Shown in pieces: positions 1 to 24,055 of a stretch of 38,276 nt of DNA. The first letter of the stretch is position 1. Each line of letters opens with the position of its first letter. Source of the stretch: Elusimicrobiota bacterium (GTDB taxonomy: Bacteria > Elusimicrobiota > Elusimicrobia > FEN-1173); assembly GCA_022703335.1 (NCBI GenBank), contig JAKLDV010000010.1, positions 1-38,276 of the forward strand, read 5' to 3'. Position numbers and translations under genes: made by a program. The notes under the pieces were generated by a model that was not told the origin of the DNA, searched no databases, and saw only the letters and a program-made list of their open reading frames with translations.

Positions 1-60
1 ATTCAAAACGTTCTTCAACAGCTGGTGGACCCCCGCATCCACGTCTCTCCGGAATTTTAA
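1..60 (+). CDS. 3' end of a plus-strand gene (possibly ABC transporter permease)
   Basis: An open frame enters the window and stops at TAA 58-60. Its last 19 residues include the string LVDPRIHV. This resembles the C-terminal tail of peptide/nickel ABC transporter permeases (DppB/DppC type), where a DPR motif followed by hydrophobic residues is common just before the stop. It converges on the kinase gene at 57-1376, and the two stop codons overlap by four bases. Only the tail is visible, so the family call is weak. Confidence 0.4.
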   Translation: MQNVLQQLVDPRIHVSPEF

Positions 61-1376
61 CCGGCCGACGGCGCCTTTCCCTCCTCCATCAGCGGCAGGA
101 CCGTCCGCACGACGGTCCCTTTCCCCCTCTCGCTCTCCATCGACAACCGGCCGCCGTGGCTCCGGATGATCTCCTGGGCGATCACCAAACCCAGGCCTGT
201 GCCGTCCTCCTTGGTCGAATGGAACCCTCCCAAAATCTTTTGAATCCTCTCCTCGGAAATGCCGGGGCCGTTGTCGCAGAACTCGATGACGCATTCCCCC
301 TTCTCCCGGCGAAGCGCCACCGTCACCCGCCGGACCTTCTGCCCTTCCAGCGCCTCGACGGCATTCTTGGCGATGTTGAAATACACCTGCTGAAGGCTGT
401 CCTTGTTGCCGAAAACACGCAGATCGCCGTCCCCCGGAAAAGCCGTTTCGAACCGGACGCCCTTTGATTTGGGGTGGAACTGGATCACGGTGACGATCGT
501 CTCCAGGAGCCCCGCCGGACGGATCTCGCTTTTTTCCTCCTCCCCCGGTTTCACAAAATGGAGCATCCGCTGTATCAGCTTGGAGATGCGGTCGGCCTCG
601 CCGACGATGATCTCGAAATCCTTCCGGGCCTCCGCGTCGAGATTCTCGTTCTGTCGATGGATCTCGACGAAACTGCTGATGGAAGAGAGGGGGCCGTGGA
701 TATCGTGGGCGATCTTGGTCACCATGGCGCCGATCTGCGACGTGGCCTCCAAATGCCCCATCCGCTGCACCAACTGTTCTTTCTCCCTCTGTTCATCGGC
801 GACGCGTTTCTGCACATTTCGATAAATGATGTCGTAGTAAAGGGCCGAGACGATGAGAAACCCGACGGTCGTCACCATCACCAGGAGCGTGGCGAACCAA
901 CTGCCGTACACCAGTTCCGGAGAAACCGTCCGATACGGGATCCGCCCCGAAAACTGCGCCAGGAGGACCGCCACGTACGTCAGGATGGTCGCCGGTAAAA
1001 TCCACCGGTGGCGCAATTCGCTGACGCTTCCGAGGATGATGATGCAGGAAAAAACGAACACGAAGGGGGACAGGATGCCGCCGGTGTAAAAAACGGCGAC
1101 CCCGAGAAGGAAAACGTTGAGGTAACTCATCCACAAGGGGACCCAGGACTTCAACCGGGGATAGAAAACATACAGGATCAGGTGGAGGACCGCCGACACC
1201 ACCGCCACGATCCCGAACCGCCGGTCGAACGGCCACCGGGGAAGGAACACCAGCAGGGAGGCGGAGGCCGTCAGAAGCACATTGAAGAGGATGTGGTTCC
1301 GCATGATCTGCGGAAACGGGACCTGGAATTGATTTGCGATGGGCGACGGTTTTGACGGCGAGTCGGGCTCTGTCAA
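57..1376 (-). CDS. Membrane sensor histidine kinase, HisKA/HATPase_c
   Basis: A 439-residue inner-membrane histidine kinase. About five or six hydrophobic segments lie between residues 28 and 182, with no clear large periplasmic domain, so the membrane domain itself may sense. The dimerisation/phosphoacceptor region has H224 in an HDIHGPL H-box. The ATPase domain shows an N-box (NIAKNAVEAL, N334/N338), a G1 box DNGPG at 368-372 and a G2 box GTGLGL at 392-397, so it should be catalytically competent. The chosen start is TTG at 1376, three bases after the stop of the lycopene-cyclase-domain gene and behind an AAGGG; ATG at 1304 (M25) is the alternative. It is the last gene of the operon headed by the HTH-receiver regulator at 3415-3987, which is its likely partner. 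Class sure; signal unknown. Confidence 0.9.
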   Translation of the reverse strand: MTEPDSPSKPSPIANQFQVPFPQIMRNHILFNVLLTASASLLVFLPRWPFDRRFGIVAVVSAVLHLILYVFYPRLKSWVPLWMSYLNVFLLGVAVFYTGGILSPFVFVFSCIIILGSVSELRHRWILPATILTYVAVLLAQFSGRIPYRTVSPELVYGSWFATLLVMVTTVGFLIVSALYYDIIYRNVQKRVADEQREKEQLVQRMGHLEATSQIGAMVTKIAHDIHGPLSSISSFVEIHRQNENLDAEARKDFEIIVGEADRISKLIQRMLHFVKPGEEEKSEIRPAGLLETIVTVIQFHPKSKGVRFETAFPGDGDLRVFGNKDSLQQVYFNIAKNAVEALEGQKVRRVTVALRREKGECVIEFCDNGPGISEERIQKILGGFHSTKEDGTGLGLVIAQEIIRSHGGRLSMESERGKGTVVRTVLPLMEEGKAPSAG

Positions 1377-1379
1377 CTT

Positions 1380-2129
1380 TTACCCTTTTGAATCCTGTTT
1401 TTTCGTGTATTTGACCGCCAACAAATACAGCGAAAGTCCCGCCGGAGGAGCATAGAGGTAGAAATTCACGTCTTCCACGGGGATCCCCCAGAACTTGATC
1501 CCCATGATGGGATTGTAGATCCACCAATCGTATTTGAACGCGAAATAGTCCCAGATCAACCCCACGAGGAACATGAACCCCGTGATGAGCGCCATCGCCC
1601 GGGGGTTCACGTACCGCCAGACGGCCTCGCACAGAACGATGGCCAGGCCGTTATAGACGATAAAATGGCTGTAGAGGTAGTAGGGCTTTTCGTCGCGATA
1701 GAGGAACGCCAGGACGGCGAAGACCAGCGTGCCGGAATAGAGATAGAGGCGGTAGGACCAGGGGGATTTCAAGGTCTGCGGGCGGGCGCGGTCGATGACG
1801 TTATAAAAACCGATCATGAACAGCATCACCATGGGGTAAAAAAGCATCTCCTCCAGGGGAAGGTTCGGCAAGAGCCAGATGCCGATGAGCCATTTGCGCG
1901 GGAAGATCCACCACTGCTGGGCGGAGAGGGTAATGCTCCAGGCCCACCCGATCAGCGTCACGAGGGCAAAGCCGAGGAAGACCGCCTTCGCGTTGGCGCC
2001 CCTGAAAAGCCACCGCCACAACACCAGCAGCGGCAGGATGAAAACCCCGACCAGGACCTGAAGATAGCGGGGCCGCGGCGTATCGGCGGCCGTCGTGGGA
2101 TCTCGACGATAGTCGCGGCGTTCCGGCAT
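1380..2129 (-). CDS. Lycopene cyclase-domain membrane protein, two-domain (CrtYcd-like)
   Basis: A 249-residue multi-pass membrane protein with two copies of the CrtYc/CrtYd lycopene cyclase domain. The first copy has W-rich helices leading to LPNLPLEEMLFY (about residues 86-98). The second has the pattern GLIWDY...WWIYNP...GIPVEDVNFYLYAPP (about 190-232). The acidic P-x-E-E/D motif is the family signature and is thought to be catalytic. In actinobacteria the two domains are separate subunits that cyclise lycopene to beta-type rings; fused forms exist in haloarchaea and some Bacteroidota. The gene lies 15 bases after its upstream neighbour in an operon with other proteins of this type. Whether it still cyclises lycopene is uncertain, since no phytoene synthase or desaturase gene is in the window. 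Confidence 0.8.
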   Translation of the reverse strand: MPERRDYRRDPTTAADTPRPRYLQVLVGVFILPLLVLWRWLFRGANAKAVFLGFALVTLIGWAWSITLSAQQWWIFPRKWLIGIWLLPNLPLEEMLFYPMVMLFMIGFYNVIDRARPQTLKSPWSYRLYLYSGTLVFAVLAFLYRDEKPYYLYSHFIVYNGLAIVLCEAVWRYVNPRAMALITGFMFLVGLIWDYFAFKYDWWIYNPIMGIKFWGIPVEDVNFYLYAPPAGLSLYLLAVKYTKKQDSKG

Positions 2130-2144
2130 GGCGGGACTTACCCC

Positions 2145-2693
2145 TCAGGGAAGATCGGTCCGGGTGTGGCGTCCTTCAAAAGCCCCCTGCCAATAGCGGA
2201 CGAACGTCGGACCCAGCAGCATCAGCAGGCAATAGCCCATCAGCGCCTCGTAGGGCATGTTGAAAAACGGGATGGTTCCCCAGTTCCACTGCAACACGTC
2301 GTAATTGTAATCCCAAACGCCCGACTTGAGCCCGACGGTTTCCAGCGGAAGCCCCACCAAAGCGGCCCCCAAGACGTCGAAGAGAAATATCTTTTTGTCG
2401 TAGGGGTCGATGGCGGTTTTTTTCAATATCCAGCAATACAGTTTCTCGGAAACAAAAACGACCAGCGTGAACATCACGCCCCAGCCCAGGACCACGGACA
2501 ACGGCACGTCCTTGTAAATGGTGAGGCGGAAATGATAGGTCCAGAGGGGCTCGGTGGAAAATTCGATGAACGCCCCGATCATGGCGCCGGCCACCATGTC
2601 CCCGAAAACGTTTTTCTTCGCAAAACGGCGAAAGAGATACCAAATGACCGGAAGCTGAAGATAGGACCATATTTCCCATACGATCAGTTTCAT
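2145..2693 (-). CDS. Multi-pass membrane protein, divergent carotenoid-enzyme-like (CruF/lycopene cyclase-like)
   Basis: A 182-residue protein with about five predicted membrane helices. It lacks the clean P-x-E-E motif of its neighbours. It does contain W/Y-rich stretches of similar design: EPLWTYHFRL followed by VPLSVVLGWG near residues 48-73, and SGVWDYNYDVL followed by IPFFNMPYEALMGY near 124-152. These recall the lycopene cyclase domain and, more weakly, the CruF/DUF422 carotenoid family (glycine/tyrosine-rich loop, then a VP helix). Its ATG overlaps the stop of the upstream gene by four bases (ATGA), which implies coupled translation within the set. I infer a carotenoid- or isoprenoid-related membrane role from context; the fold resemblance is by eye and unconfirmed. 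Confidence 0.55.
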   Translation of the reverse strand: MKLIVWEIWSYLQLPVIWYLFRRFAKKNVFGDMVAGAMIGAFIEFSTEPLWTYHFRLTIYKDVPLSVVLGWGVMFTLVVFVSEKLYCWILKKTAIDPYDKKIFLFDVLGAALVGLPLETVGLKSGVWDYNYDVLQWNWGTIPFFNMPYEALMGYCLLMLLGPTFVRYWQGAFEGRHTRTDLP

Positions 2694-3079
2694 GAATTTT
2701 TCCTCCCTTCAATCTTGTGTTTCACAAACAGCATAAAAACGATGACGAAGAGCCCCGGGAACCAGTAATAGAGGAGGGGTTCCTCGAGGGGGACGCCGAA
2801 GACCTTCGGGCCCCAAATGCGGGCCTCGTTGTAGACCCAGTGGCCGCGTTTGAGGCTGTAATGCTCGGCGAAAAGCATGAAGGTCTCAAAACAGAGGATG
2901 GTCGCCAGGGCGGCCCGGCCGTTGAGCTCTTTGCGCGCCACGGAGTAAAAAGGCTTGAAGAGGAACAGGAAGGGCAGGAGGAGGAGCGAGAACGCCGGCC
3001 ACCAGGCGCCGCGGCGGTAGGTGGGGAACTCCTCCTTCTTTTTCCCCTCCGGCGGCAGGGGTTGTATGTGTTCAGGCAT
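2690..3079 (-). CDS. Lycopene cyclase-domain protein, small subunit type (CrtYd-like)
   Basis: A 129-residue membrane protein with a charged N-terminal tail of about 28 residues and three hydrophobic segments. Residues about 79-106 give GHWVYNEARIWGPKVFGVPLEE, followed by a hydrophobic aromatic run. This is the standard layout of a single CrtYc/CrtYd domain: aromatic loop, glycine, then P-L-E-E at the head of the last helix. Single-domain cyclase subunits act as heterodimers, so the natural partner is the 113-residue protein encoded just upstream, whose gene it overlaps by eight bases. The gene downstream overlaps it by four bases. Family confident; enzyme activity inferred. Confidence 0.78.
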   Translation of the reverse strand: MPEHIQPLPPEGKKKEEFPTYRRGAWWPAFSLLLLPFLFLFKPFYSVARKELNGRAALATILCFETFMLFAEHYSLKRGHWVYNEARIWGPKVFGVPLEEPLLYYWFPGLFVIVFMLFVKHKIEGRKNS

Positions 3080-3413
3080 GGGGGACCCTCCTGAAAAACC
3101 GCCGGTCCAGCAGATCGAAGGCCAGGTAAAGCAGCATGATGACGCCGCAGGCGCCGAGCCAGAAGAAGAATTCCTCCACGGGGGCCCCGAAGAGCGTCCA
3201 GCCGATCAACGGGTCCCACGCCTCGGAAAAGTTCCACACGTCGGCCCAGAGATAGACGTATTCCACCACCAAGGAGGTCGGAAGGCAAAGGCCGAGGAAC
3301 GTGATCCAGAAGGCTTTCCGGGTGGATTTTTCCAGGAACGGCCAAATCGCCGGCATCAAGACAAAGGACGGCACCCAGAACCCGAAAAAATAGAGGAGGA
3401 AATAGCGCGGCAC
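3072..3413 (-). CDS. Lycopene cyclase-domain protein, small subunit type (CrtYc-like)
   Basis: A 113-residue protein with three hydrophobic helices. The motif WNFSEAWDPLIGWTLFGAPVEEFFFW (about 61-86, listed here as key residues W, N, G, P, E, E, F, W) matches the CrtYc/CrtYd cyclase domain, with the P-V-E-E acidic pair intact. The start is GTG at 3413, one base after the TAA of the HTH-receiver gene. No strong Shine-Dalgarno is visible, which suits translation coupled to the upstream gene. Together with the next gene it could form a heterodimeric cyclase, while the 249-residue two-domain protein downstream would be a second, fused version. That is an unusual redundancy. Confidence 0.78.
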   Translation of the reverse strand: MPRYFLLYFFGFWVPSFVLMPAIWPFLEKSTRKAFWITFLGLCLPTSLVVEYVYLWADVWNFSEAWDPLIGWTLFGAPVEEFFFWLGACGVIMLLYLAFDLLDRRFFRRVPHA

Positions 3414-3414
3414 G

Positions 3415-3987
3415 TTAGAGAAGGGCTTTTATTTCGGAAAGGAAGGTCTTGGGATTGACGGGTTTGGCCATGAAGAAATCCACCCCCGACTTCTTGATGG
3501 CGGCGATCTCCTCCGGATCCTTGGCGGCGGTGAGCGCCACGATCTTGGTGGTGCTCAGAGTGGCGTCGGCCCGCACGAGGCGGACGATCTCCCGGCCGTC
3601 GGTCTCGCCCAGATAAATATCCAAAACGACGAGTTCCGGCCGGAACACCTGCATGAGGAAACCCGCCTTGAACCCGACCTGGGTGGTTTGCACCTCCAGG
3701 AACGGGTCCTTCTCCAGCAGACGCTTGATGAGGCGGAGTTCGACGGCGTTGTCCTCCACCACCAGGATTTTCTTCCGCCGGGTGTGTTCGGGGGTGTAGG
3801 GCAGGCCGTTGTCCTTGGCGAATTTCTCCAAATCAGCCGGGGCGATGCGGAAATGCCCGCCGGGAGTGGAATACGCGTTCAACTTTTTCTGCAGGGCGGC
3901 GCGGAAAATCGTGGAGTGGCTCACATGGCACAGCCGGGCGGCCTCCGCCGTTGTGTAATATTTCTCAAATTGCTTTTTGGAATCCAT
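3415..3987 (-). CDS. HTH-receiver response regulator (excisionase-type HTH, C-terminal REC)
   Basis: A 190-residue response regulator with inverted domain order. Residues about 10-58 form an excisionase/MerR-like helix-turn-helix: YYTTAEAARLCHVSHSTI, then a wing with TPGGHFRI. Residues 72-190 are a receiver domain with acidic pair E78-D79, phosphoacceptor D123 (VVLDIYLGE), T153 and K175. Most response regulators put the receiver first; here DNA binding is N-terminal. It heads the operon with the lycopene-cyclase-domain genes and ends with the kinase at 57-1376, so it is the likely transcriptional output of that kinase. It faces the FadL-type porin gene across 119 bases and may control both directions. 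A paralogue with the same architecture is at 23483-24055. Confidence 0.88.
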   Translation of the reverse strand: MDSKKQFEKYYTTAEAARLCHVSHSTIFRAALQKKLNAYSTPGGHFRIAPADLEKFAKDNGLPYTPEHTRRKKILVVEDNAVELRLIKRLLEKDPFLEVQTTQVGFKAGFLMQVFRPELVVLDIYLGETDGREIVRLVRADATLSTTKIVALTAAKDPEEIAAIKKSGVDFFMAKPVNPKTFLSEIKALL

Positions 3988-4011
3988 ATCCCCATCTCCC
4001 TCTATTTACAG

Positions 4012-4028
4012 TCTATTGACAAAATAGA
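4012..4028. promoter_or_regulatory. Inverted repeat in the divergent promoter region (candidate operator)
   Basis: TCTATT at 4012-4017 and AATAGA at 4023-4028 form a perfect 6-base inverted repeat with a 5-base spacer. It sits between the HTH-receiver gene and the FadL-type porin gene and covers a TTGACA hexamer (4016-4021). The position suits an operator for the adjacent regulator, but a 6-base palindrome in AT-rich intergenic DNA can occur by chance. Confidence 0.35.
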
Positions 4029-4044
4029 TCAACCGTGTTAAGTT
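4016..4044 (+). promoter_or_regulatory. Candidate sigma70-type promoter for the FadL-type operon
   Basis: A perfect TTGACA at 4016-4021 is followed, after 17 bases, by TAAGTT (4039-4044). The -10 match is poor (3 of 6). It lies about 65 bases upstream of the ATG at 4107, which has GGAGGG at 4096-4101 as ribosome binding site. Confidence 0.35.
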
Positions 4045-4106
4045 TACCATAATTCCGCGACAACACGACAGATTCGCTCCATTCCATCGGTTTCTGGAGG
4101 GTCTCC

Positions 4107-5354
4107 ATGAGAAAACGTTCGTCCATCCTTTTCTGTCTTCTTTTTTTCCTCGCCTCCCTGCCCCGCATGGCCCGCGCCGCCGGATACGAATTCGAAGGGA
4201 TCGGCGCAAGGCAGGTCGGGCGGGCGGGCGCGGCCGTGGCCGACGTGTCCGATTGGACGGCCATTTATTGGAACCCGGCGGGCATGGCCGCCCCCCGACT
4301 CGACGGCGAAACGAACGCGGGACAGGTGGGGTTCGAAGCCTTCGGCGGGTATGCCCGCACGAAAGACGGCAACTCCCTCTCGCGCCTGGCCGGCCCCCTG
4401 TTCAACGAAAAACATATGGCGTCCTCCTTCATCCTCGGCGCGTTCGGCGTCCGGGTCCCCCTTGAATCCGGATGGGTCCTGGGAACGGGCGTCTACACCC
4501 CCCTCATCCAGGGAGCCGACTTCAACGACACCGCCAACGGAATGACGCTCGATTATTTCGCGCAGGCCGGCATCGCCGTGGTCAATTTCTCCGTGGCCCG
4601 GGTCCTCTGGAACGACGTCACCCTGGGGGCCGGGGTGAACGCGGTGTACGCGCAGATGCGGAGCAACTCCCGCCTCACCAATTCCCTGAGCGGCACCGTG
4701 GCCAACTCCGACATCGCCGGGGACGGCTGGGGGCCGGAAGGCATCCTCGGGTTGCAGTGGCGGATGTCCTCCGCCTGGCGGTTCGGCGCGGTCTATCGCA
4801 CGGGGTCGCGCATCCCCCTCAAAGGGGACGCCGACGCCTCCATGACCGGCCTCCCCGACGAGCGTTCCACCTTCGGGTACGATTTCAACCACCCGGCCAC
4901 CGCCGCCGTGGGGGTCTCCTTCACGCCCGTGCCGAAGGCCACGCTCTCCTTCGACATCAACCACACCAACTGGCGTTCCTTCCGTGGAGACATGGACTTT
5001 GAAACCAGCGGCCCCCTGTTGAGCGACATCCGGAACTCCTACGCCTGGAAAAACACCTTCAAGTTCCGGCTGGGCGGCCTCTATCGCCTGACGGACAAAA
5101 CCGACCTGCTCGCGGGACTCTCCTACGACAACTACGCCCTGGACAGGAACAGCATCGATTTTTCCACCACCATCGACGTCCCCATTTTCCGTTATTTCGG
5201 CGGGGTGACCCGCCGGCTCCCGAAAGGATGGGAAATGAGCGCCAGCCTGCTGGCCGCCAAGGGCCGCCGCGAAAAGAACGGGGTGGATTACTCCATCGGC
5301 GGATGGCAGGCGATGGTGGAAACCGCCTGGAATTTCTCGACGAAACATCCATAA
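4107..5354 (+). CDS. FadL/OmpP1-family outer-membrane transporter
   Basis: A 415-residue outer-membrane beta-barrel with a signal peptide (basic n-region, hydrophobic core, cleavage after ARA near residue 24). The mature N-terminus reads GYEFEGIGARQVGRAGAAVAD, then AIYWNPAGMA, which is the hallmark of the FadL/OmpP1/TodX family (the NPAG hatch motif, about 56-60). The rest alternates in beta-strand fashion up to the last strand, MVETAWNFSTKHP. FadL proteins let long-chain fatty acids or hydrophobic aromatics cross the outer membrane. The length is typical of the family. GGAGGG lies five bases before the ATG. It heads a three-gene plus-strand unit and is divergent from the carotenoid-like operon, so a hydrophobic substrate shared by both sides is possible but speculative. 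Confidence 0.88.
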   Translation: MRKRSSILFCLLFFLASLPRMARAAGYEFEGIGARQVGRAGAAVADVSDWTAIYWNPAGMAAPRLDGETNAGQVGFEAFGGYARTKDGNSLSRLAGPLFNEKHMASSFILGAFGVRVPLESGWVLGTGVYTPLIQGADFNDTANGMTLDYFAQAGIAVVNFSVARVLWNDVTLGAGVNAVYAQMRSNSRLTNSLSGTVANSDIAGDGWGPEGILGLQWRMSSAWRFGAVYRTGSRIPLKGDADASMTGLPDERSTFGYDFNHPATAAVGVSFTPVPKATLSFDINHTNWRSFRGDMDFETSGPLLSDIRNSYAWKNTFKFRLGGLYRLTDKTDLLAGLSYDNYALDRNSIDFSTTIDVPIFRYFGGVTRRLPKGWEMSASLLAAKGRREKNGVDYSIGGWQAMVETAWNFSTKHP

Positions 5355-13425: not shown

Positions 13426-13806
13426 CTATCCCAACACTTCCCGCAACTTTTCCAAAAGTTGCGCCACCCGAAACGGTTTCTCCAAATAGGCGGCCACGCG
13501 AAAATCCTGCCGCACCTCCAACAACTCCCGGAGATGCCCCTTGCCGGTGACCACGAAAACGGGTATTTCCCGTGTTTCCGGGTTTTCCTTCAAGCGCGCG
13601 TTGACGGAAATGCCGTCCAATTTCGGCATCATCAGGTCCAACACGATGGCGTCGGGCCGGAGGGACGGCACCTTCTCCAAGGCCTCGACGCCGTTGGCGG
13701 CCGTTTCGGCGGCATACCCGTTCTTCTCCAAAGCCGTCTTCAACACGAACACCACGTCCGGCTCGTCGTCCACGATCAAAACCGTTTTCTTATCACCCGT
13801 CGTCAT
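13426..13806 (-). CDS. Single-domain response regulator (CheY-like receiver)
   Basis: A 126-residue stand-alone receiver domain. D13/D14 (VDDEPD), phosphoacceptor D57 (IVLDLMMPK), T87 and K110 (LEKPF) are all present, so it can be phosphorylated. There is no output domain. The start is ATG 13806, which overlaps the stop of the upstream kinase by four bases (ATGA); the longer frame to 14046 is non-coding reading inside that kinase. As the last gene of the signalling operon it may pass phosphate within the relay or act by protein contact. Confidence 0.88.
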   Translation of the reverse strand: MTTGDKKTVLIVDDEPDVVFVLKTALEKNGYAAETAANGVEALEKVPSLRPDAIVLDLMMPKLDGISVNARLKENPETREIPVFVVTGKGHLRELLEVRQDFRVAAYLEKPFRVAQLLEKLREVLG

Positions 13807-14945
13807 GTTTTCCCCTCCGCCCCCGTCGTTTCCCTGTGTTTCGGCAGCTCCACATGGAAACGGCTCCCGTTTCCCAAACGACTCTCCATCCAGACATGTC
13901 CGCCGTGCATCCGCACGATCCCGTCGACGATCGCCAGCCCGATGCCGGACCCGCCCGCCTCGCGCGTATCCGAGGAGTCCACCTGGTAGAAGCGTTCGAA
14001 TATCTTTCCCTGGTGTTCCGGTGCGACCCCCTTCCCCGTGTCCCACACGCTCAGCCTCACCCGGCCGTCCTGCTCTGACAATTCAATCCCCACCTTCCCC
14101 CCCGGCGGGGTGAATTTCGCGGCATTCCCCAGAAGATTCACCAACACCTGCTGTATTTGCCCCGCGTCCACCTCCGCCATCAGCGACGGCAGTCCCTCCG
14201 GCAGAGGTTCCACCGAAATCCCGTTCTTCGTAAACAAGGGCCTCAGGTCCTTTTCGGTTCGTCGCGTCAGCTCGGTGATGTCCACGGGCAAAAAAACCGG
14301 GCGGAGCGTCCCTCTCTCCATACGAGAGAAATCGAGCACGTTGCCGACCATTTCCCGCAGCCGGTCGTAGTTGTTCTGCACCACCTCCCGCAATTTCGCC
14401 GATGTCGCGCTGTCCGAGGGGCCGTCCCAGAGGAGTTCCAGGGCCGCCCCCATGGCGAACAGAGGCGTGCGCAACTCATGCGACACGTTCGACACGAACT
14501 CCGACTTCAGCCGGTCCAGTTCCTGATGGCGCACGATGGTTTTTCGAAGCCGTCCCATTTCCAGACGTTGTTCTTCGTGGTCCGAACAGCGTTTCGCCAC
14601 GGCCACGATCTCCTCCAGGTTGCACGGCTTGCACACATAATCGCAGGCCCCCAAATGCAGGCACTCCACCGCCCCTTCGACCGTCGCCACGCCCGTGATG
14701 ATGTTGACGCAGGAGGGGTATTGGGTGTCTTTGATGTGCTTCAAAAGATCCAGCCCGCTCATTTCAGGCATCTTTAAATCGGTGAAGACGATTTGAACCG
14801 GGTGTTCCTGAAGTTTCCGCAAAGCCTCCCGGCCGCTGGCGGCCGAAAAAACGTTGAAACCGCATTTGCTCAGGACCCGGCCCCAAACGGCGCGGATCAT
14901 CTCCTCGTCGTCCACCACCAAGACATTTTTAGAAGCATCTCCCAT
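13803..14945 (-). CDS. Receiver-first soluble histidine kinase (REC-HisKA-HATPase_c)
   Basis: A 380-residue cytoplasmic protein. Residues 7-120 are a receiver with D12/D13, phosphoacceptor D56 (VFTDLKMPE), T84 and K106. Residues about 145-210 are HisKA with H156 in VSHELRTPL. Residues about 250-368 are the ATPase domain with N270/N274, D302-x-G-K-G and GGSGIGLA (331-338). All key residues are present. Receiver-first kinases of this form commonly act as relay steps: phosphorylation of the receiver tunes the kinase, which then phosphorylates another regulator, here probably the 126-residue receiver that overlaps its stop. It has no membrane segment, so its input must come from another protein of the operon. 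Confidence 0.9.
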   Translation of the reverse strand: MGDASKNVLVVDDEEMIRAVWGRVLSKCGFNVFSAASGREALRKLQEHPVQIVFTDLKMPEMSGLDLLKHIKDTQYPSCVNIITGVATVEGAVECLHLGACDYVCKPCNLEEIVAVAKRCSDHEEQRLEMGRLRKTIVRHQELDRLKSEFVSNVSHELRTPLFAMGAALELLWDGPSDSATSAKLREVVQNNYDRLREMVGNVLDFSRMERGTLRPVFLPVDITELTRRTEKDLRPLFTKNGISVEPLPEGLPSLMAEVDAGQIQQVLVNLLGNAAKFTPPGGKVGIELSEQDGRVRLSVWDTGKGVAPEHQGKIFERFYQVDSSDTREAGGSGIGLAIVDGIVRMHGGHVWMESRLGNGSRFHVELPKHRETTGAEGKT

Positions 14946-14978
14946 GTTCGCGCCCCCCCCGGTTTTTTCAGACCGGCC

Positions 14979-16553
14979 TCATACAGGAAACTCCACCAGG
15001 AACTCGCTCCCCACCCCCAGCTCACTCCGGACGCTCAACGCCCCGCCGTGCTGCTGCACGATGCCGTAGGAGATGGAGAGACCCAACCCGGTCCCCTGTC
15101 CAACCGGCTTGGTCGTAAAAAACGGATCGAACATACGGGACATGTTTTCCTCGCTGATTCCCACGCCGTTGTCCCGAAAGACGACGGAAACGCCGGAGGG
15201 CGAGCGCCCCACAACGATCTCGATACGACCGTCTTTCCGGTCCCCCACGGCCTGGCGGGCGTTGGTCAGCAGGTTCAAAAAAACCTGCTGCAGCTGGCTC
15301 TTGTCTCCCAGAAGCACGGGAGACTCCTCCGGAAATTCTTTGACGATCCGGATCCCCGACGACGAGAAGTCGTATTTCACCAGGTCCAACGTGGCCTCCA
15401 GGAGCGCGACGACGGCGAGTTTTTCCTTCCGGGGCTCCTCGCGGCGGCTGAATTGAAGGAGGTTCTGAATGATCTGGCGGCAGCGCTGACTCTGTTTGTG
15501 AATGCATTCCAGATCCTCGCGTTGAGAGGGCGTCAGGGTCTTGTCATCCAGAAGCAACTGAGCGAAACCCATGATGCCCGTCAACGGATTGTTCAACTCA
15601 TGGGCGACCCCGGCGGCCAGCTGGCCGACGGCCGCCAACTTCTCGGTCTGAAACAACTTCGCCTGCGTTTCTTTCAACCGCAGATTCGCCTCTTCCAGGC
15701 GGCCGATGTTTTGCTCCAGCGCCCGGTAGAGCCGGACGTTGTATACGGCATGGGCCAACTGGGAACAAAAGATCCCGCATCGCTGAAGTTCATCCGACAG
15801 GAACGGTTTTTCTCCCTTCCGCTGCCCCGCGTAGAGGACCCCCAGAAGGTTCCCGTCCACCACCAGGGGACAAAAGATGCCGGGCCCCGCCGCCGAGGCG
15901 GGGTCCGGTGAAAGAGCGACCGCCAGGGGGTCCGGCGGGACGGGTTTTCCGCCGGACAGTTTCTCCTGAACCGTCCGGCGGACGAGCCCTAAGACCGCCT
16001 CGTCGCAACCCAGGGCGGCGGCGGTCGTCAGGGCTCCCGCCTCGTCCATGAGCATCAGACAGACGCCGTCGGCGGAAAAGATCTCCCGCGCCGCCTCCAC
16101 CGCGCGAGGAAAAAGAACGTCCGCCCGGATGGTATTGAACACCGAACGGCTCGTCTTATAGATCGCCGCCAGCGCCCGCAACTCTTTTTTCTCCAGGGCC
16201 TTCTCGATAAGCAAAAAAACCTCGTCCATGTTGAACGGTTTCTGCACAAAATCATAGGCGCCGTATTTCATGGCCTCCACGGCGGTCTCGATGGTGCCGT
16301 ACCCCGTGCTGATGATCACCTCCACGTCCGGGTCCAACGCCTTGACGGCCCGGAGCGTCTGGATCCCGTCGACTTTCGGCATCTTCAGGTCGCTCAAGAC
16401 CAGATGGAACTTTTCGTTCCGCGCTTTTCCGATGGCCTCTTCCCCATCCGCGGCGGTGGTTATCCGATAGCCTTTGGAAGCCAGCTCATACGAAAGCATG
16501 TCGCGCATCCCCTCCTCGTCATCCACCACCAGTATCTTCACCGGATCCGTCAT
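14979..16553 (-). CDS. Receiver-GAF histidine kinase (REC-GAF-HisKA-HATPase_c)
   Basis: A 524-residue soluble kinase. The receiver (5-120) has D11/D12, phosphoacceptor D55 (VLSDLKMPK), T83 and K105, with an NtrC-like GYGTIETAVEAMKYGAYDFVQKP region. A GAF-like domain (about 135-270) may bind a small ligand or receive conformational input. A short coiled coil (about 275-305) leads to HisKA with H318 (AHELNNPL) and an ATPase domain with N427/N431, DNGVGI from D461 and GTGLGLS from 487. AGGAGG lies at a good distance before the ATG. The H-box form HELNNPL is typical of NtrB-like kinases. It sits 33 bases before the next receiver-first kinase, and the two look like successive relay elements of one pathway. 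Confidence 0.9.
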   Translation of the reverse strand: MTDPVKILVVDDEEGMRDMLSYELASKGYRITTAADGEEAIGKARNEKFHLVLSDLKMPKVDGIQTLRAVKALDPDVEVIISTGYGTIETAVEAMKYGAYDFVQKPFNMDEVFLLIEKALEKKELRALAAIYKTSRSVFNTIRADVLFPRAVEAAREIFSADGVCLMLMDEAGALTTAAALGCDEAVLGLVRRTVQEKLSGGKPVPPDPLAVALSPDPASAAGPGIFCPLVVDGNLLGVLYAGQRKGEKPFLSDELQRCGIFCSQLAHAVYNVRLYRALEQNIGRLEEANLRLKETQAKLFQTEKLAAVGQLAAGVAHELNNPLTGIMGFAQLLLDDKTLTPSQREDLECIHKQSQRCRQIIQNLLQFSRREEPRKEKLAVVALLEATLDLVKYDFSSSGIRIVKEFPEESPVLLGDKSQLQQVFLNLLTNARQAVGDRKDGRIEIVVGRSPSGVSVVFRDNGVGISEENMSRMFDPFFTTKPVGQGTGLGLSISYGIVQQHGGALSVRSELGVGSEFLVEFPV

Positions 16554-16593
16554 GACCGCCGCCTCCTTGATTTTCAGATCGTCCCAGCCCGTC

Positions 16594-17067
16594 TCAGGCC
16601 GTCAACATGAGCAACCGGGCGCTGAGGGCCGTTTCCAGGTAGGGCAGGTCGAACGGTTTGATGATGTAGTCGCAGGCCCCCATCTCCATGGTTTTCCGCG
16701 CGATGTCCACATCCGCGTTGGCCGTGCTGATGATGACGGCGATCTCCCGGTCGATCTCGCGCACCGCTTTCAGGACCTCGATGCCGTTCATCTTCGGCAT
16801 CCACAGATCGAGGAGCATGATGTGCGGCCGTTCCTTCTTCACCAGCGACAGCGCCTCCACCCCCCCCTCCGCCACCGACACCGACAACCCCTTGCTTCTC
16901 AAAAACCGCTCCAATACCTTCCGAACCACCGGTTCGTCATCCACCACCAACACCCGCCCTTTCGGCGACGAATCTCCGGCGAAACGAGGCGGCCTTCCCA
17001 GGGGGTCCGCCACCCGCCCCACCACGCGGCCCGCTTTCGACAGTTCCTGTCCGTCGTTCTCCATCAT
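16594..17067 (-). CDS. Response regulator receiver protein with 36-residue N-terminal extension
   Basis: A 157-residue protein. The start is ATG 17067, chosen because GGGAGG lies five bases before it; the open frame continues to 17142 without support. Residues 1-36 are a polar extension rich in Gly, Arg and Pro. Residues 37-150 form a receiver with D43/D44, phosphoacceptor D87 (MLLDLWMPK), S114 and K137 (IIKPF). There is no DNA-binding domain. It lies between another receiver protein and the REC-GAF kinase in the signalling operon and probably serves as a phosphate carrier or protein-contact regulator. Confidence 0.87.
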   Translation of the reverse strand: MMENDGQELSKAGRVVGRVADPLGRPPRFAGDSSPKGRVLVVDDEPVVRKVLERFLRSKGLSVSVAEGGVEALSLVKKERPHIMLLDLWMPKMNGIEVLKAVREIDREIAVIISTANADVDIARKTMEMGACDYIIKPFDLPYLETALSARLLMLTA

Positions 17068-17095
17068 GTTTTCCTCCCGTCTCCTGCGATTTCGG

Positions 17096-17506
17096 TCAAA
17101 CGGCCAATGACAAGACTTCCCGAATCCGCGACTCGATGACATCCAGGCGGAACGGCTTCAGGATAAAATCCGCGGCGCCCCGTTTCATGGCATACACGGC
17201 GGTCTCAACGGTGCCGAATCCCGTGGTGATGATCACCGCCGTGCCCGGACACATCGTCCGGACCTTCTCCAGCAAATTCAGCCCGCTCAATCCGGGCATC
17301 ACGATGTCCGTGACGACCAGGTCATAATGCCTTTGCTCCAGAAGAGCCATCGCCTCCGCTGCGTCCCGGGCGGTCTCCACCTCACATCTCCTCCCCTCGA
17401 CGCAAGCGCGGAGAATCTCACGGAACCCCGGCTCGTCGTCCACCACCAAGATCCGCCGCCCCGGACCGTCCTGCTTTTTTTCCGAATGAGAGCCTTTCGC
17501 GGACAT
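17096..17506 (-). CDS. Single-domain response regulator (NtrC-type receiver)
   Basis: A 136-residue receiver domain after a short charged N-terminus. D23/D24, phosphoacceptor D67 (VVTDIVMPG), T94/T95 and K117 (ILKPF) are intact. The GFGTVETAVYAMKRGAADFILKP stretch (about 96-118, key residues G, T, V, A, K, P) is typical of receivers cut from NtrC-family regulators, but no AAA+ or HTH part follows. It starts nine bases after the stop of the large sensor kinase, which makes it the most likely first acceptor of that kinase. Confidence 0.88.
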   Translation of the reverse strand: MSAKGSHSEKKQDGPGRRILVVDDEPGFREILRACVEGRRCEVETARDAAEAMALLEQRHYDLVVTDIVMPGLSGLNLLEKVRTMCPGTAVIITTGFGTVETAVYAMKRGAADFILKPFRLDVIESRIREVLSLAV

Positions 17507-17515
17507 ATTTTTCTC

Positions 17516-20500
17516 CTATCCCCGGACCGACCCGTCCTTCGACTTTTCCAGCGTCGCCGCAAAAACGCGCTCCGGCTCCCGCCCCGTGCGCACGGGGAAT
17601 TTTATCGTGAAGGTGGTTTCACCGGGACGGCTTTGAAGATCGATGCTCCCGGAATGCCGCCGAACGATCTCATGCACCAGGCTCAACCCCAAACCGGTCC
17701 CCTGTCCCACCGGCTTGGTGGTGAAAAACGGCTCAAAAATATGCTGACGAAGCTCCGAAGGGACGCCGTTCCCCGTATCGCCCACTTTCAGGCAGACCCA
17801 GGAATGGATCCCCTCTTCCGCAAGCTCCGTGGCGATGGTCAATTTTCCACCGTCCGGCATGGCATCGATGGCGTTGTTGGCCAAGTTGATGATGATCTGC
17901 TGTATCTGTACTTTATTCCCCAAAATAGCCGGAATTTTCTCCGTCAATTGTTTCTCCACCTCCACCCGACTGATCCGGGCGCGAGCCTCTATCAAATGCA
18001 GAGCGCCCTCCACGGCCTGGTTCAGCTCGATCGGTCCCCTGTCCGGCTCGTGGACCCGGGAAAATGTCAGCAGATCCTGCACCAGGTTTTTGCAGCGAAG
18101 GGCCTCCCTCTCGATGGACCGCAGGGGCAGCTCCAATTTATCGCCGGCCGCGAGGCGCCGCACAACCCCCTGGGCGAACCCGAGGATGACACCCAGCGGA
18201 TTGTTGATTTCATGCGCCACGCCGGCGGCCAGCTGGCCCACCGCCGCCAGCTTCTCTTTCTGGGCCAGACCGGCCTCCATGTTCTTTCGGTCCGTGATGT
18301 CAAGACAGGACCCGATATAGCCGGCAAACTTCTTATCCATGTCATAGAACGGCCGGCCGGCGTCCAAAACCCAGCGATAAACCCCATCGTGCCGGCGGAG
18401 ACGGTATTCCATTTCAAACGGTTCGCGCTTCTTAAAGGCCTCCGAAAAAGCGTTCTGGCACTTCGCGAAGTCGTCCGGATGGAACCCCTCCGCCCACCCC
18501 TCGCCCATTTCCCGCTCCGCCGTTCGGCCGGTGAACGTGAGGAACGTCTTGTTGAAATAGTTGCACTTCCCGTCCACCCCGCACCTCCAAATGAACGTGG
18601 GGAATTCCTCGAACAGCGTAAGATAAAAATCGCGCGCCTGGCGGACCAGTTCCTCCGCGGCCCGGCGGTCCTCCTCCACGCCGATGGCCGAGGCCAGTAT
18701 TCCGATGAATTTCCGGTCCTCTTCCGTGGGGCGAACATCATGCCGATAAACGACGCACAAACTGCCGATGGACTCGCCGCGGCATTTCACGGCACGGCCG
18801 AGATAGGTCTTCAGTTCGTATTTCCTCACCGCCGGGTCCGACTCGGCGTAGGGCGTATGGGGCAGATCGGTCAGGATCACGGGCTCGTCGGCGTTCTCTC
18901 GAATGACCGAGGCGCAGATGCGCCCTTCGGCTTTCCCTTCGGAAGGCATGTCCGGCGGCGTTTTCCAACCGGAAACAAGGCACAGACTCCCCTTGTCCAG
19001 CCGCTGATAAAAAGCGCCGTCGGACACCAACAGGTTGCCGCAGAGAACCGTTAAACTCTGTATGTTCTTGACGTGGTCGGCGCCGAAGTTCAAAAAACAG
19101 TCGTTCAGGGCCTTCAACCGGTTTTCGGCCAAGTGCCGGGCGGTTACATCGTTGGCGATCCCCTCCACCGCCGCCACTCTTCCGTCCGGTCCGAAGACGG
19201 GCGTCTCCGTGACCTCCAAAAGATGAACGGACCGGTCTTTGTGATAGATCTCCACCAGATACGCCGGCTGCTGTATCCCCTGAATGCTCAGGTTCGTGTG
19301 GCGCTCCACCTCCCGGTTGATCGGGTTGTCCGTCAGGTATTCGGAGTAGTGGGTCAAGAACATCTCCGGATCGTATCCCAACACCTGTGTGATCGACGGG
19401 CTCAAGTACGTCATAACGCCGCCGGTGTCGTGCCGATAGAAGAAATAGTTCTGTCGAAGGTTTTCCACCAACCGCCGGAATTTCTCTTCGCTCGCCCTCA
19501 GAGACGATTCCGCCCTTTTCTGTTCCGTCATGTCTTTTGCCAGTGAAACGATGGCGACGGGCTTGTTGTCCCTGCCCACGAGAGCGGACATGGAATACAG
19601 CACGGGCAGCACGGTGCCGTCTTTGCGGACCATCTGCATCTCCAGGTTTTTCACCGTCTCCCCGGCCGACAGATGTTCCAAGGTGGCGTTTTTGTCGAAC
19701 TCCGCAAAAAGGACGCCGATGGGCTGATGAAGCAGTTCCGCGGCCTCATATCCCAGCGTGGACACCGCGGCCGAGTTGATTTTTTCCATATTGCCGAGGA
19801 GGTCCGTGACGATCAACATGTCCGCCACGTTCTCCAGAACCCCGTCCAGATAATTCCGGGAAACGCTGGTGACCTTCAACGCCTGGCTCATCCGGTTGAA
19901 ACTGCGGGCCAGATCCCCGAGTTCATCGTGGGACTCGGCCGAAACCATCTCCCCCAACCCGCCGTGGGCCACCTGATCCACCGCCGACGAGAGCCGGGCG
20001 ATGGGAGCCAGGAATTTGCGCGCGAACAACATCAGCGCCAAAAGGGCGACGAGGCTAATGGAGATGATGATCAGCGAAGCTCTCCGCGATTCCCGCCAGG
20101 CCACCCGAAGAGCCCGCGAGATGTCCAAACTCAGACGAATCGTCCCGAGGCGCTCACGGGCCCCCAGAAGCTCCTCCTCGGACCCCGACAAAACATGCCG
20201 CCAGACGGGGACGGTGAGCACCAGGACGGGTGGATCGTTTTCCATCAACACACGCCGCACGATCTTGTCGGAACGGATTCCTTCACGGAGGAGGGGGTCA
20301 TCCCACAGACGTCCCGTTTTCGACACGTTGGTATGCGCCAGGACCTTGCCAAGCTGATTGAACGCGCCGACGCCCGCGGCCCCGGTAACGCTCTGCATCT
20401 TCAGCAAAAGCGGAAGGAACTTACGTTCTTCGCCCGACTGAAACGCCGCCGTCATCTCGGGGCCTTTCGCCAGGGGCCGAACCAGCGCGGCGCTGCGTTC

Positions 20501-20617
20501 CCCCACCTCCGCCAAAATGGCGTTCTGAACGCCACTTTTCGCGAAATAGCCGATAAGCCCCGCCCCCACCAGCGCCGCGCCGCTCGTCACGGTCAAAAAT
20601 TTCGTCATTAATCTCAT
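17516..20617 (-). CDS. Membrane multi-sensor histidine kinase (periplasmic sensor-HAMP-PAS-PAS-GAF-PAS-HisKA-HATPase_c)
   Basis: A 1033-residue sensor kinase. The start is ATG 20617, which overlaps the TGA of the binding-protein gene by four bases. A first membrane helix (about 8-26) and a second (about 178-198) bracket a periplasmic domain of about 150 residues. HAMP follows (about 199-252). Two PAS domains lie at about 258-370 and 375-505, the second ending at IANDVTARH. A GAF-like domain runs about 515-650. A third PAS (about 660-780) has FHPDDF and ends in CLDITDRK. HisKA has H802 (AHEINNPL). The ATPase domain has N911/N915, DTGNG from D947 and GTGLGLS from 973. The periplasmic domain is well placed to read the adjacent binding protein. 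Domain limits are by eye. Confidence 0.9.
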   Translation of the reverse strand: MRLMTKFLTVTSGAALVGAGLIGYFAKSGVQNAILAEVGERSAALVRPLAKGPEMTAAFQSGEERKFLPLLLKMQSVTGAAGVGAFNQLGKVLAHTNVSKTGRLWDDPLLREGIRSDKIVRRVLMENDPPVLVLTVPVWRHVLSGSEEELLGARERLGTIRLSLDISRALRVAWRESRRASLIIISISLVALLALMLFARKFLAPIARLSSAVDQVAHGGLGEMVSAESHDELGDLARSFNRMSQALKVTSVSRNYLDGVLENVADMLIVTDLLGNMEKINSAAVSTLGYEAAELLHQPIGVLFAEFDKNATLEHLSAGETVKNLEMQMVRKDGTVLPVLYSMSALVGRDNKPVAIVSLAKDMTEQKRAESSLRASEEKFRRLVENLRQNYFFYRHDTGGVMTYLSPSITQVLGYDPEMFLTHYSEYLTDNPINREVERHTNLSIQGIQQPAYLVEIYHKDRSVHLLEVTETPVFGPDGRVAAVEGIANDVTARHLAENRLKALNDCFLNFGADHVKNIQSLTVLCGNLLVSDGAFYQRLDKGSLCLVSGWKTPPDMPSEGKAEGRICASVIRENADEPVILTDLPHTPYAESDPAVRKYELKTYLGRAVKCRGESIGSLCVVYRHDVRPTEEDRKFIGILASAIGVEEDRRAAEELVRQARDFYLTLFEEFPTFIWRCGVDGKCNYFNKTFLTFTGRTAEREMGEGWAEGFHPDDFAKCQNAFSEAFKKREPFEMEYRLRRHDGVYRWVLDAGRPFYDMDKKFAGYIGSCLDITDRKNMEAGLAQKEKLAAVGQLAAGVAHEINNPLGVILGFAQGVVRRLAAGDKLELPLRSIEREALRCKNLVQDLLTFSRVHEPDRGPIELNQAVEGALHLIEARARISRVEVEKQLTEKIPAILGNKVQIQQIIINLANNAIDAMPDGGKLTIATELAEEGIHSWVCLKVGDTGNGVPSELRQHIFEPFFTTKPVGQGTGLGLSLVHEIVRRHSGSIDLQSRPGETTFTIKFPVRTGREPERVFAATLEKSKDGSVRG

Positions 20618-21501
20618 GGCGCCACCGCCGTCGCACGCCTTTTGAGATCCTCGCTGATGTTGACCCCACACTCTCCGGCGGCGGTCATATTGAAAGCGAT
20701 GTCGAATCGAGGCGACGCGATATCACCGGACAGGCTTTCCCCGGCGAGCGCCCGACGCGCCGCGTTCGCCGCCGCCCGGCCGATGTCCCCGAAATCGACG
20801 TAGACCGCCGCGACGGAGCCGTAGTCGAGGAAACGTTTAACGGATGAATAGACGGGAAGTTTGTTCGCCCAACAAAATTCCTTGATCATCCTCACGTTTT
20901 GTTCGTTCAGGAGCAACGGGTCCGCCATGAGCCAAACGGCATCCACGCGCCCCTCCAGCCCCCGCAGGACATCGGGCAATTCATCCGACGACGTCACCTC
21001 CACCGGCAGCACCCTCACCCCCGACTCGTCCACTCTCCGGCTTTTCGCCAACCCCGAAAGGTGCGCGCTCCCCCACAAAACCGCCAGTCGTTTTAAATTC
21101 GGCTGAATCTCCTTGAGTTCCAGGATGATCGTTTGAAAAGAAGTCTCCATGGAAACCATCACGGTTTGTCCTTTTCTTTGGGCGGGATCAATCCAGGTGC
21201 CGGGGGCCAGACAATAGATCAGCGTCGTCCCCTCCGGATAGTTTTCCATCGCCGCCTTGCCGCCGAAAGCCACCACGACTTTTGCGGACGACGGCAAGGA
21301 CGGCGCGCCGTGGGATAAATCAAAAACAGCAACACCCCCCGGACCCATTCCCTCCCGAAACCCTTCCAGCGCCGCGGCGTAAGGCCCCGTGTTGGACGCC
21401 ACGACCGCCGCCACCGAGGCCTCGTCCGCGGCGGCCGAAACAGCCAGCGTCGCCGCCAGACAGAGAGAGAGCGCGGAACCGATGCCGTTTTTCCGTTTCA
21501 T
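20614..21501 (-). CDS. Periplasmic ABC_sub_bind-like binding protein (sensory)
   Basis: A 295-residue exported protein with a signal peptide (basic MKRKNG, hydrophobic core, cleavage near SAAADE). The two-lobe pattern resembles the ABC_sub_bind (DUF534/TrpX-like) family: VVVAFGGKAAMENYPEGTTLIYCLAPG in lobe one; then LKRLAVLWGS, VWLMADPLLLN and LPVYSSVKRFLDYGSVAAVYVDFGDIGRAAANAARRALAGE in lobe two (given here by position, about 140-265). No ABC permease or ATPase is nearby. Instead the gene lies between a TonB receptor and a sensor kinase with four-base overlaps on both sides. I infer that it presents a ligand to the kinase rather than to a transporter. The ligand is unknown. Confidence 0.8.
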   Translation of the reverse strand: MKRKNGIGSALSLCLAATLAVSAAADEASVAAVVASNTGPYAAALEGFREGMGPGGVAVFDLSHGAPSLPSSAKVVVAFGGKAAMENYPEGTTLIYCLAPGTWIDPAQRKGQTVMVSMETSFQTIILELKEIQPNLKRLAVLWGSAHLSGLAKSRRVDESGVRVLPVEVTSSDELPDVLRGLEGRVDAVWLMADPLLLNEQNVRMIKEFCWANKLPVYSSVKRFLDYGSVAAVYVDFGDIGRAAANAARRALAGESLSGDIASPRFDIAFNMTAAGECGVNISEDLKRRATAVAP

Positions 21502-23482: not shown

Positions 23483-24055
23483 TCAGGCCGGAAGGAATGC
23501 CCTCAGTTTCTTTTCCAGATCTTCGACGCCGAACGGTTTCCCGAGGAAATCGTCCGCGCCCGCCGCCAACATCCGCTTCTTCGTCTGATCCACGTTGATA
23601 CCGCTGATGGCCAACACCTTCACGCCCTTTAGGTCGTCGTCGGCCCGGATCATCCGGCAAACCCTTTCGCCGTCCAGCCCGGGAAGGAGCACGTCCAACA
23701 CCACCAAGGCCGGCCGCAATTCCGTCATCTTTTTCCCAGCCTCGAAACCGTCCACGGCCTCCTCCGCCGCCACCTCGCTCCCATACACGTTCCGGAGCAC
23801 CCTCTTGATGAACTTCCGCACGCTCTCCTCGTCGTCCACGATCAGGATGGTCGGCGGTTTGACGCCCAACTCTTCCGGAACAGGCATTTTGAGGGATTTC
23901 AGGAAAACGGCCAAATCACTGTCCCACACACGGCGATGCCCGCCGGCCGTCACAAAGGACGGAATTTTCCCCTCCTCGATCCATCGACCCACCGTGGGGG
24001 GGGTCACGTGGCAGAGGCGAGCGATGTCGTGCGTCCCATAGGCCTTCTTTTCCAT
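23483..24055 (-). CDS. HTH-receiver response regulator (excisionase-type HTH, C-terminal REC)
   Basis: A 190-residue protein with the same inverted architecture as the one at 3415-3987. Residues 4-54 form a MerR/excisionase-type HTH (YGTHDIARLCHVTPPTVGRW, then a wing with TAGGHRRVWD). Residues 68-190 are a receiver with D74/D75, phosphoacceptor D121 (VVLDVLLPG), S151 and K173 (LGKPF). AAGGAG lies nine bases before the ATG, and a TTGACA promoter is upstream. It is the first gene of the nine-gene signalling operon and the only one there with a DNA-binding domain, so it is the probable transcriptional output of the whole relay and may control its own operon. Confidence 0.9.
   Translation of the reverse strand: MEKKAYGTHDIARLCHVTPPTVGRWIEEGKIPSFVTAGGHRRVWDSDLAVFLKSLKMPVPEELGVKPPTILIVDDEESVRKFIKRVLRNVYGSEVAAEEAVDGFEAGKKMTELRPALVVLDVLLPGLDGERVCRMIRADDDLKGVKVLAISGINVDQTKKRMLAAGADDFLGKPFGVEDLEKKLRAFLPA

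Follow-up and report, generated by a model that had tools for sequence, protein, structure and literature searches.

Actinobacteria, Archaea and Bacteroidetes are known to contain heterodimeric and fused carotenoid cyclases of the CrtYcd/CrtYef/LitAB kind (PMC2889829). Two other described systems are relevant here, namely the Insig proteins, which are sterol-level sensors according to the title of a reference within PMC7815742, and the RegB redox kinases, in which the heptapeptide GGXXNPF is reported to bind coenzyme Q1 (PMC10525716). The gene array analyzed here lies in a 38276 bp stretch of DNA (hereafter the window), a complete contig of an Elusimicrobiota metagenome-assembled genome (MAG; 2.66 Mb, 96% complete). 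It encodes proteins of the same domain family as CrtYc/CrtYd, CrtYcd, CrtYef and LitAB (TIGR03462, PF18916; hereafter the CarR domain), with the PxEE motif intact, and, like the CrtYc/CrtYd-type cyclases, it includes a split pair of small-subunit genes and a fused two-domain protein (PMC2889829). Unlike these cyclases, the array comprises up to four CarR-type genes per operon, is combined with a constant histidine kinase (HK), a FadL channel and a diverged protein, C, and is carried mostly by genomes without a carotenoid pathway. We tentatively favor the possibility that the module is a membrane sensory unit, in which proteins with the lycopene cyclase fold would respond to an isoprenoid-like ligand and signal through the kinase.

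To our knowledge, CrtYc/d-type membrane cyclases of carotenoids have been described only as pigment enzymes. We found no earlier description of such a module in a literature search of limited coverage; no paper linking lycopene cyclase with Elusimicrobia, or the lycopene cyclase domain with a histidine kinase, was retrieved, which is a weak negative given the limited subscription coverage. The accessible part of the literature on Insig together with lycopene cyclase turned up only eukaryotic sterol and carotenoid metabolism.

Conservation of the array and its kinase

Six genes are located almost without gaps on the minus strand at positions 57-3987 of the window, in the order of transcription response regulator (RR), A, B, C, D and HK (Table 1). 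The earlier note had placed all six open reading frames correctly, with the helix-turn-helix (HTH)-receiver regulator first and the kinase last, and had also correctly read the motifs of the four membrane proteins, of which A and B are single-domain, D is two-domain with intact motifs and C is divergent. It overlooked the FadL/TodX gene on the plus strand, which is part of the conserved module, and its packing by overlaps of 4 to 8 bases holds only for A/B (8 nt) and B/C (4 nt), with RR/A, C/D and D/HK separated by 1, 15 and 3 nt, respectively. Length and homology guided the choice of gene starts; that of HK, a TTG, is uncertain.

Among 341 genomes of the phylum, mostly MAGs, the A-B-C-kinase arrangement is kept in five families and approximately 24 genomes; the scans of genome contigs relied on short peptide patterns, and the module may exist outside Elusimicrobiota. 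Protein C was found in 22 of the 341 genomes and TIGR03462 in 26, with 21 common to both. The five genomes with CarR only include three with A-B but without C (G115, G203 and G206), one with a hybrid protein (G195, see below) and one false match (G205), which was rejected because it falls within an HgcA-like protein bearing the NVWCAAGK motif. Together with an adjoining gene for a ferredoxin-like protein (motif CMECGAC), the gene for this protein represents candidate hgcAB mercury-methylation genes (G205, L108:7779-9064).

The arrays, which belong to families f1, f3, f6, f14 and f25 (the last of these outside the class), follow the order A-B-C(1-2)-[D]-HK, and in 18 loci a FadL-type gene of the same orientation comes next, whereas D and the adjacent HTH-receiver RR are confined to f1, f3 and f6. 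Translational coupling is a regular feature of these loci: A and B overlap by exactly 8 nt at 17 of the 23 loci, B and C mostly by 4 nt, and wherever C or D precedes the kinase (20 loci), the spacing between the two lies between -20 and +6 nt. Given the exact A-B overlap and the tight spacing ahead of the kinase, this arrangement is not due to chance, and given that the flanking genes vary among families, linkage within the module appears to be under selection. In the tree of A and B, the sequences from f1, f3, f6 and f25 group apart from most of those from f14. One array has decayed (L088, G177:C254), with a truncated A and a fragment of C containing in-frame stops alongside the kinase gene. 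The f14 arrays (L070, L074, L078 and L087) have genes for HypA and a NUBPL-like ATPase at one end and genes for a BtuFCD-like ABC transporter at the other, with NiFe-hydrogenase genes at the HypA end in L074 and L078. The hydrogenase and BtuFCD-like neighbors were rejected as a functional link, given that they are absent around the arrays of the other families and look like synteny of the f14 lineage.

The kinase accompanies nearly every array, and in two genomes without C (G203 and G206) it directly follows B, whereas an adjacent HTH-receiver RR was found at only four arrays, those of the window, G006 (where it is cut by the contig end), G009 and G030. Given a kinase at nearly every array and a regulator at only four, the kinase fits the role of a partner, rather than a mere regulator, of the membrane proteins; the earlier proposal of two-component control of cyclase paralogues was accordingly half the picture. 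HK contains the HisKA and HATPase_c domains, and the D, T and K positions of the receiver are intact as judged by eye. The GGxxSP motif and the phosphoacceptor His are invariant in 27 kinases.

The multi-transmembrane N-terminus and the GGxxSP motif, which is akin to GGXXNPF, are features that HK shares with the RegB/PrrB kinases. The match to NF033792 (RegB-type; 80 bits over residues 59-426) is nevertheless far under the family cut-off of 350, Ser replaces Asn in the motif, and the RR has the HTH first and the receiver last. This RegB-like motif, the position of the f14 arrays near hydrogenase genes and the independence of the array from C30/C40 synthesis (see below) are all compatible with the cyclase-like proteins altering another endogenous isoprenoid common to all these cells (for example, a polyprenol or the side chain of a quinone) under a redox-sensing kinase. 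We consider this improbable: the patchy spread (~24 of 341 genomes) ill suits a core quinone step, the hydrogenase neighborhood is seen only in f14, and the association with FadL would be left unexplained.

A direct repeat between the RR and FadL genes is a candidate operator of the RR. The pattern TGTMAAT-N4-TGTMAAT, built post hoc from this site and one upstream of the G009 RR, was found among all fetched loci only at these two sites and is absent from G030. A scan of positions 3900-4200 for promoters and terminators found none.

Domain membership and the fold of protein C

In profile searches with hidden Markov models, D exceeds both the curated TIGR03462 cut-off (39.4 bits) and the PF18916 gathering score (31 against 27), A and B are sub-threshold for TIGR03462, and C has no match to either family. 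Given that orthologues of A and B from other genomes exceed the TIGR03462 cut-off, A and B are genuine members of the lycopene cyclase domain family, as had been read from the DNA alone, and the acidic motif is kept in their homologues. The invariant residues are P78, E80, E81 and W60 among 23 A proteins and P97, E99, E100, H80 and W81 among 22 B proteins, so that PxEE is present in every one of them. In this domain family the P-x-E-E/D motif is expected on the third helix, and D conserves the motif with an E/D exchange. Orthologues of D were found only in G006, G009 and G030; a single-protein scan of the genome contigs with D yielded no relative. The genome from which the window derives encodes no CarR domain besides those of this array.

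Judged by profile comparison, C is a diverged CarR relative. Its second half matches the combined A/B/D profile with P 1.4e-4 (score 27.4, against 22.2 for the best of 60 column shuffles), and 33 C sequences retain E44, E118, W127, Y129, P147 and E149, leaving of the acidic motif only P-x-E. In several relatives C is duplicated (C1/C2). Nearly all named relatives of C come from Elusimicrobia/Elusimicrobiota MAGs; matches from Lapidilactobacillus were rejected, the protein in question being soluble and methyltransferase-like, with one chance motif in common.

A bridge between the two kinds of protein is provided by P0002 of G195 (346 aa), the halves of which are ~30% identical over 142 residues (E 6e-18). 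The N-terminal half matches CarR (TIGR03462 E 9.7e-4, profile P 1.5e-4) and the C-terminal half matches protein C (P 3.4e-6), both above shuffles. This C/CarR hybrid is encoded two genes upstream of a multi-transmembrane class III adenylate/guanylate cyclase (L107:8058-10841), a different type of signaling output. The same cluster also holds genes for a UbiA-type protein and a CDP-alcohol phosphatidyltransferase.

The AlphaFold2 (AF2) models of C (pLDDT 91.9) and D (pLDDT 75.9) both contain, in each repeat, a helix, small beta elements and a helix that begins at P-x-E or the corresponding Pro. For both models the top fold match in the PDB is MvINS (4xu4, 4xu6), the mycobacterial Insig homologue, with probabilities of 0.97 and 1.00, respectively. 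The array differs from Insig/MvINS in the low TM-scores, in the lack of a sequence match to Insig (neither C nor D matches the Insig profile in Pfam) and in having a kinase as the partner instead of Scap. A sequence search of the PDB found nothing for D and chance matches only for C, and a viral structure search gave no informative match. By analogy, the CarR fold might be the ligand-binding sensory part of a two-component system, working with the kinase roughly as Insig does with Scap, which we regard as unlikely. If this were true, carotenoid cyclases and Insig lipid sensors would be joined in one membrane-protein superfamily.

Carotenoid synthesis, scavenging and sensing

Judged from the family matches and motifs, these could be conventional lycopene cyclases that serve a carotenoid pathway of the cell's own, the remaining genes of which are located elsewhere in the genome; the earlier note had suggested that the paralogues could make different ring types. 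This is very improbable and largely refuted. CrtI was found above the cut-off in one of 21 array genomes (G092, whose two CrtI-family genes speak for such a pathway), and two others encode full-length CrtI-like proteins under the cut-off. Of the SQS_PSY proteins of the window's own genome, which are squalene enzymes, one is HpnC (316 bits against a cut-off of 250) and the other is HpnD-like (237 bits against 279), and the genome's three full-length matches to the amino-oxidase family are HpnE, a protoporphyrinogen oxidase (HemG-type) and a PRK07208-type protein. Two array genomes, G327 (100% complete) and G328 (91%), have no SQS_PSY gene; judged by the co-occurrence of phytoene synthase and a CrtI-type desaturase in one genome, the array proteins do not qualify as lycopene cyclases of carotenoid synthesis. 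The presence of SQS_PSY in 19 of 21 array genomes is the class background (222 of 341 in the phylum) and is unlinked to the array.

A link to squalene or hopanoids was likewise rejected, given this background, the lack of SQS_PSY from genomes with f25 arrays and the absence of squalene-hopene cyclase from all 21 array genomes in a search with positive controls. Given the single CrtI genome, the Hpn-type enzymes of the window's genome, the two genomes without SQS_PSY and the absence of squalene-hopene cyclase, the module is not accounted for by the synthesis of lycopene or of hopanoids. As a separate observation, 19 of 21 array genomes combine SQS_PSY (HpnC/HpnD and HpnE in the window's own genome, G000) with the absence of squalene-hopene cyclase, i.e., squalene without an evident hopanoid use.

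FadL/TodX is a family of channels for hydrophobic compounds. The protein encoded in the window is a clear member (PF03349, 87 bits against a gathering score of 29.7), and such a gene is present in most loci, usually as the last gene of the array. In seven arrays it is directly followed by a gene for a PF04240 protein, the family to which the CruF carotenoid hydratases belong. PF04240 was found over the cut-off in seven of the 341 genomes, in all seven at an array and in one genus only; it is absent from the window's own genome, in which respect the array differs from PF04240/CruF systems, and weak matches to it occur in two C proteins (best E 0.0024). These observations, together with invariant PxEE in A and B and the lack of an endogenous carotenoid pathway, are compatible with scavenging, whereby FadL would import carotenoids, apocarotenoids or other terpenoids of neighboring organisms, A-B (and D, or PF04240 in those loci that have it) would cyclize the end groups of these compounds or hydrate them, and the two-component system would merely induce the operon. 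This main rival appears somewhat unlikely. The kinase is far more constant than any RR, C has been multiplied and lacks the double acidic motif, and no FadL gene adjoins the arrays of f25; a carotenoid-using partner such as rhodopsin was not seen in any of the 21 array genomes, a weak point given that the control genomes gave no match either. Intact PxEE is compatible with a scavenging enzyme and with a sensor. What tips the balance from scavenging towards sensing is that nearly all arrays have the kinase, that C is duplicated and has lost the double acid, and that the hybrid is paired with an adenylate cyclase.

Reuse of the domain for membrane sensing or isoprenoid handling, which the earlier note had raised as an option, is the reading that agrees best with the comparative data. 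The data show directly the gene content and its conserved order, the translational coupling, the invariant motifs, the lack of a carotenoid pathway and the kinase partner at nearly all loci; complex formation, the class of the ligand, the direction of the signal and the operator are what we infer beyond these. A and B would form a CrtYc/CrtYd-like heterodimer, to which C, and in this lineage also D, would add further subunits of the CarR/Insig fold. The ligand of the A-B-C(-D) complex would be a hydrophobic and probably isoprenoid-like molecule, bound within the inner membrane after delivery, in most lineages, through the co-encoded FadL-type channel, and held, possibly protonated, by the conserved PxEE acids. 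Presence of the ligand would be passed to the adjoining multi-transmembrane kinase and, in this lineage, from the kinase to the HTH-receiver RR, which may act at the direct repeat and so regulate both the operon and the FadL gene transcribed away from it.

Several observations weigh against such a sensory unit. The invariant PxEE acids and the PF04240 genes beside seven arrays suggest chemistry rather than binding alone; the fold match to MvINS is weak (E 0.01-0.04, TM-score 0.41-0.60) and is a lead only; A-B is encoded without an adjacent kinase in G115; the GGxxSP motif is probably common in such kinases; and the pairing of the hybrid with an adenylate cyclase is known from a single genome, G195, where the transmembrane part of the cyclase has no detectable relation to that of the kinase. 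In the favored reading the module, besides sensing a hydrophobic isoprenoid-like ligand, would probably also handle it chemically, and the array is more likely to sense and process an oily molecule than to serve a pigment pathway. A kinase-coupled set of these proteins in a phylum mostly without carotenoid genes would show a second life of the fold, in signaling or lipid handling, and would caution against taking annotations of 'lycopene cyclase' in uncultured bacteria as evidence of pigments. It would also offer a small testable system, of three or four tiny membrane proteins and one kinase, for bacterial sensing of oily molecules.

Features of the window

Table 1. Genes and candidate site of the array region, in window coordinates
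Feature	Position	Strand	Support
RR: N-terminal HTH_17 (excisionase/MerR-like), C-terminal receiver	3415-3987	(-)	HTH_17 E 4.8e-9, Response_reg E 3.1e-17
A: membrane protein, one CarR (lycopene cyclase) domain, GAPVEEF	3072-3413	(-)	TIGR03462 24.8 bits
B: membrane protein, one CarR domain, GVPLEEP	2690-3079	(-)	TIGR03462 35.7 bits
C: divergent membrane protein, two predicted CarR/Insig-like repeats, MPYEA	2145-2693	(-)	33 homologues, AF2 model, profile match
D: two-domain CarR protein, NLPLEEM and GIPVEDV	1380-2129	(-)	TIGR03462 49.3 bits
HK: membrane histidine kinase, multi-transmembrane N-terminus, GGILSPF	57-1376	(-)	HATPase_c E 4e-23, HisKA E 1.9e-11
FadL/TodX-type outer-membrane channel, divergent from the operon	4107-5354	(+)	PF03349 E 1.2e-24
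Candidate RR operator, direct repeat TGTCAAT-N4-TGTAAAT	4004-4021	(-)	between RR and FadL genes

The contig opens within an open frame on the plus strand (positions 1-60, ending ...VLQQLVDPRIHVSPEF and a stop), which meets the kinase gene tail to tail. Remote from the array, at 23483-24055 on the minus strand, the window encodes a second regulator with an HTH_17/MerR-like N-terminus and a C-terminal receiver, which scores 234 bits against the profile of the array RR. A series of additional genes for kinases and receivers occupies 13426-20671 on the same strand, among them open reading frames of 524 aa and 1051 aa with matches to the kinase profile.

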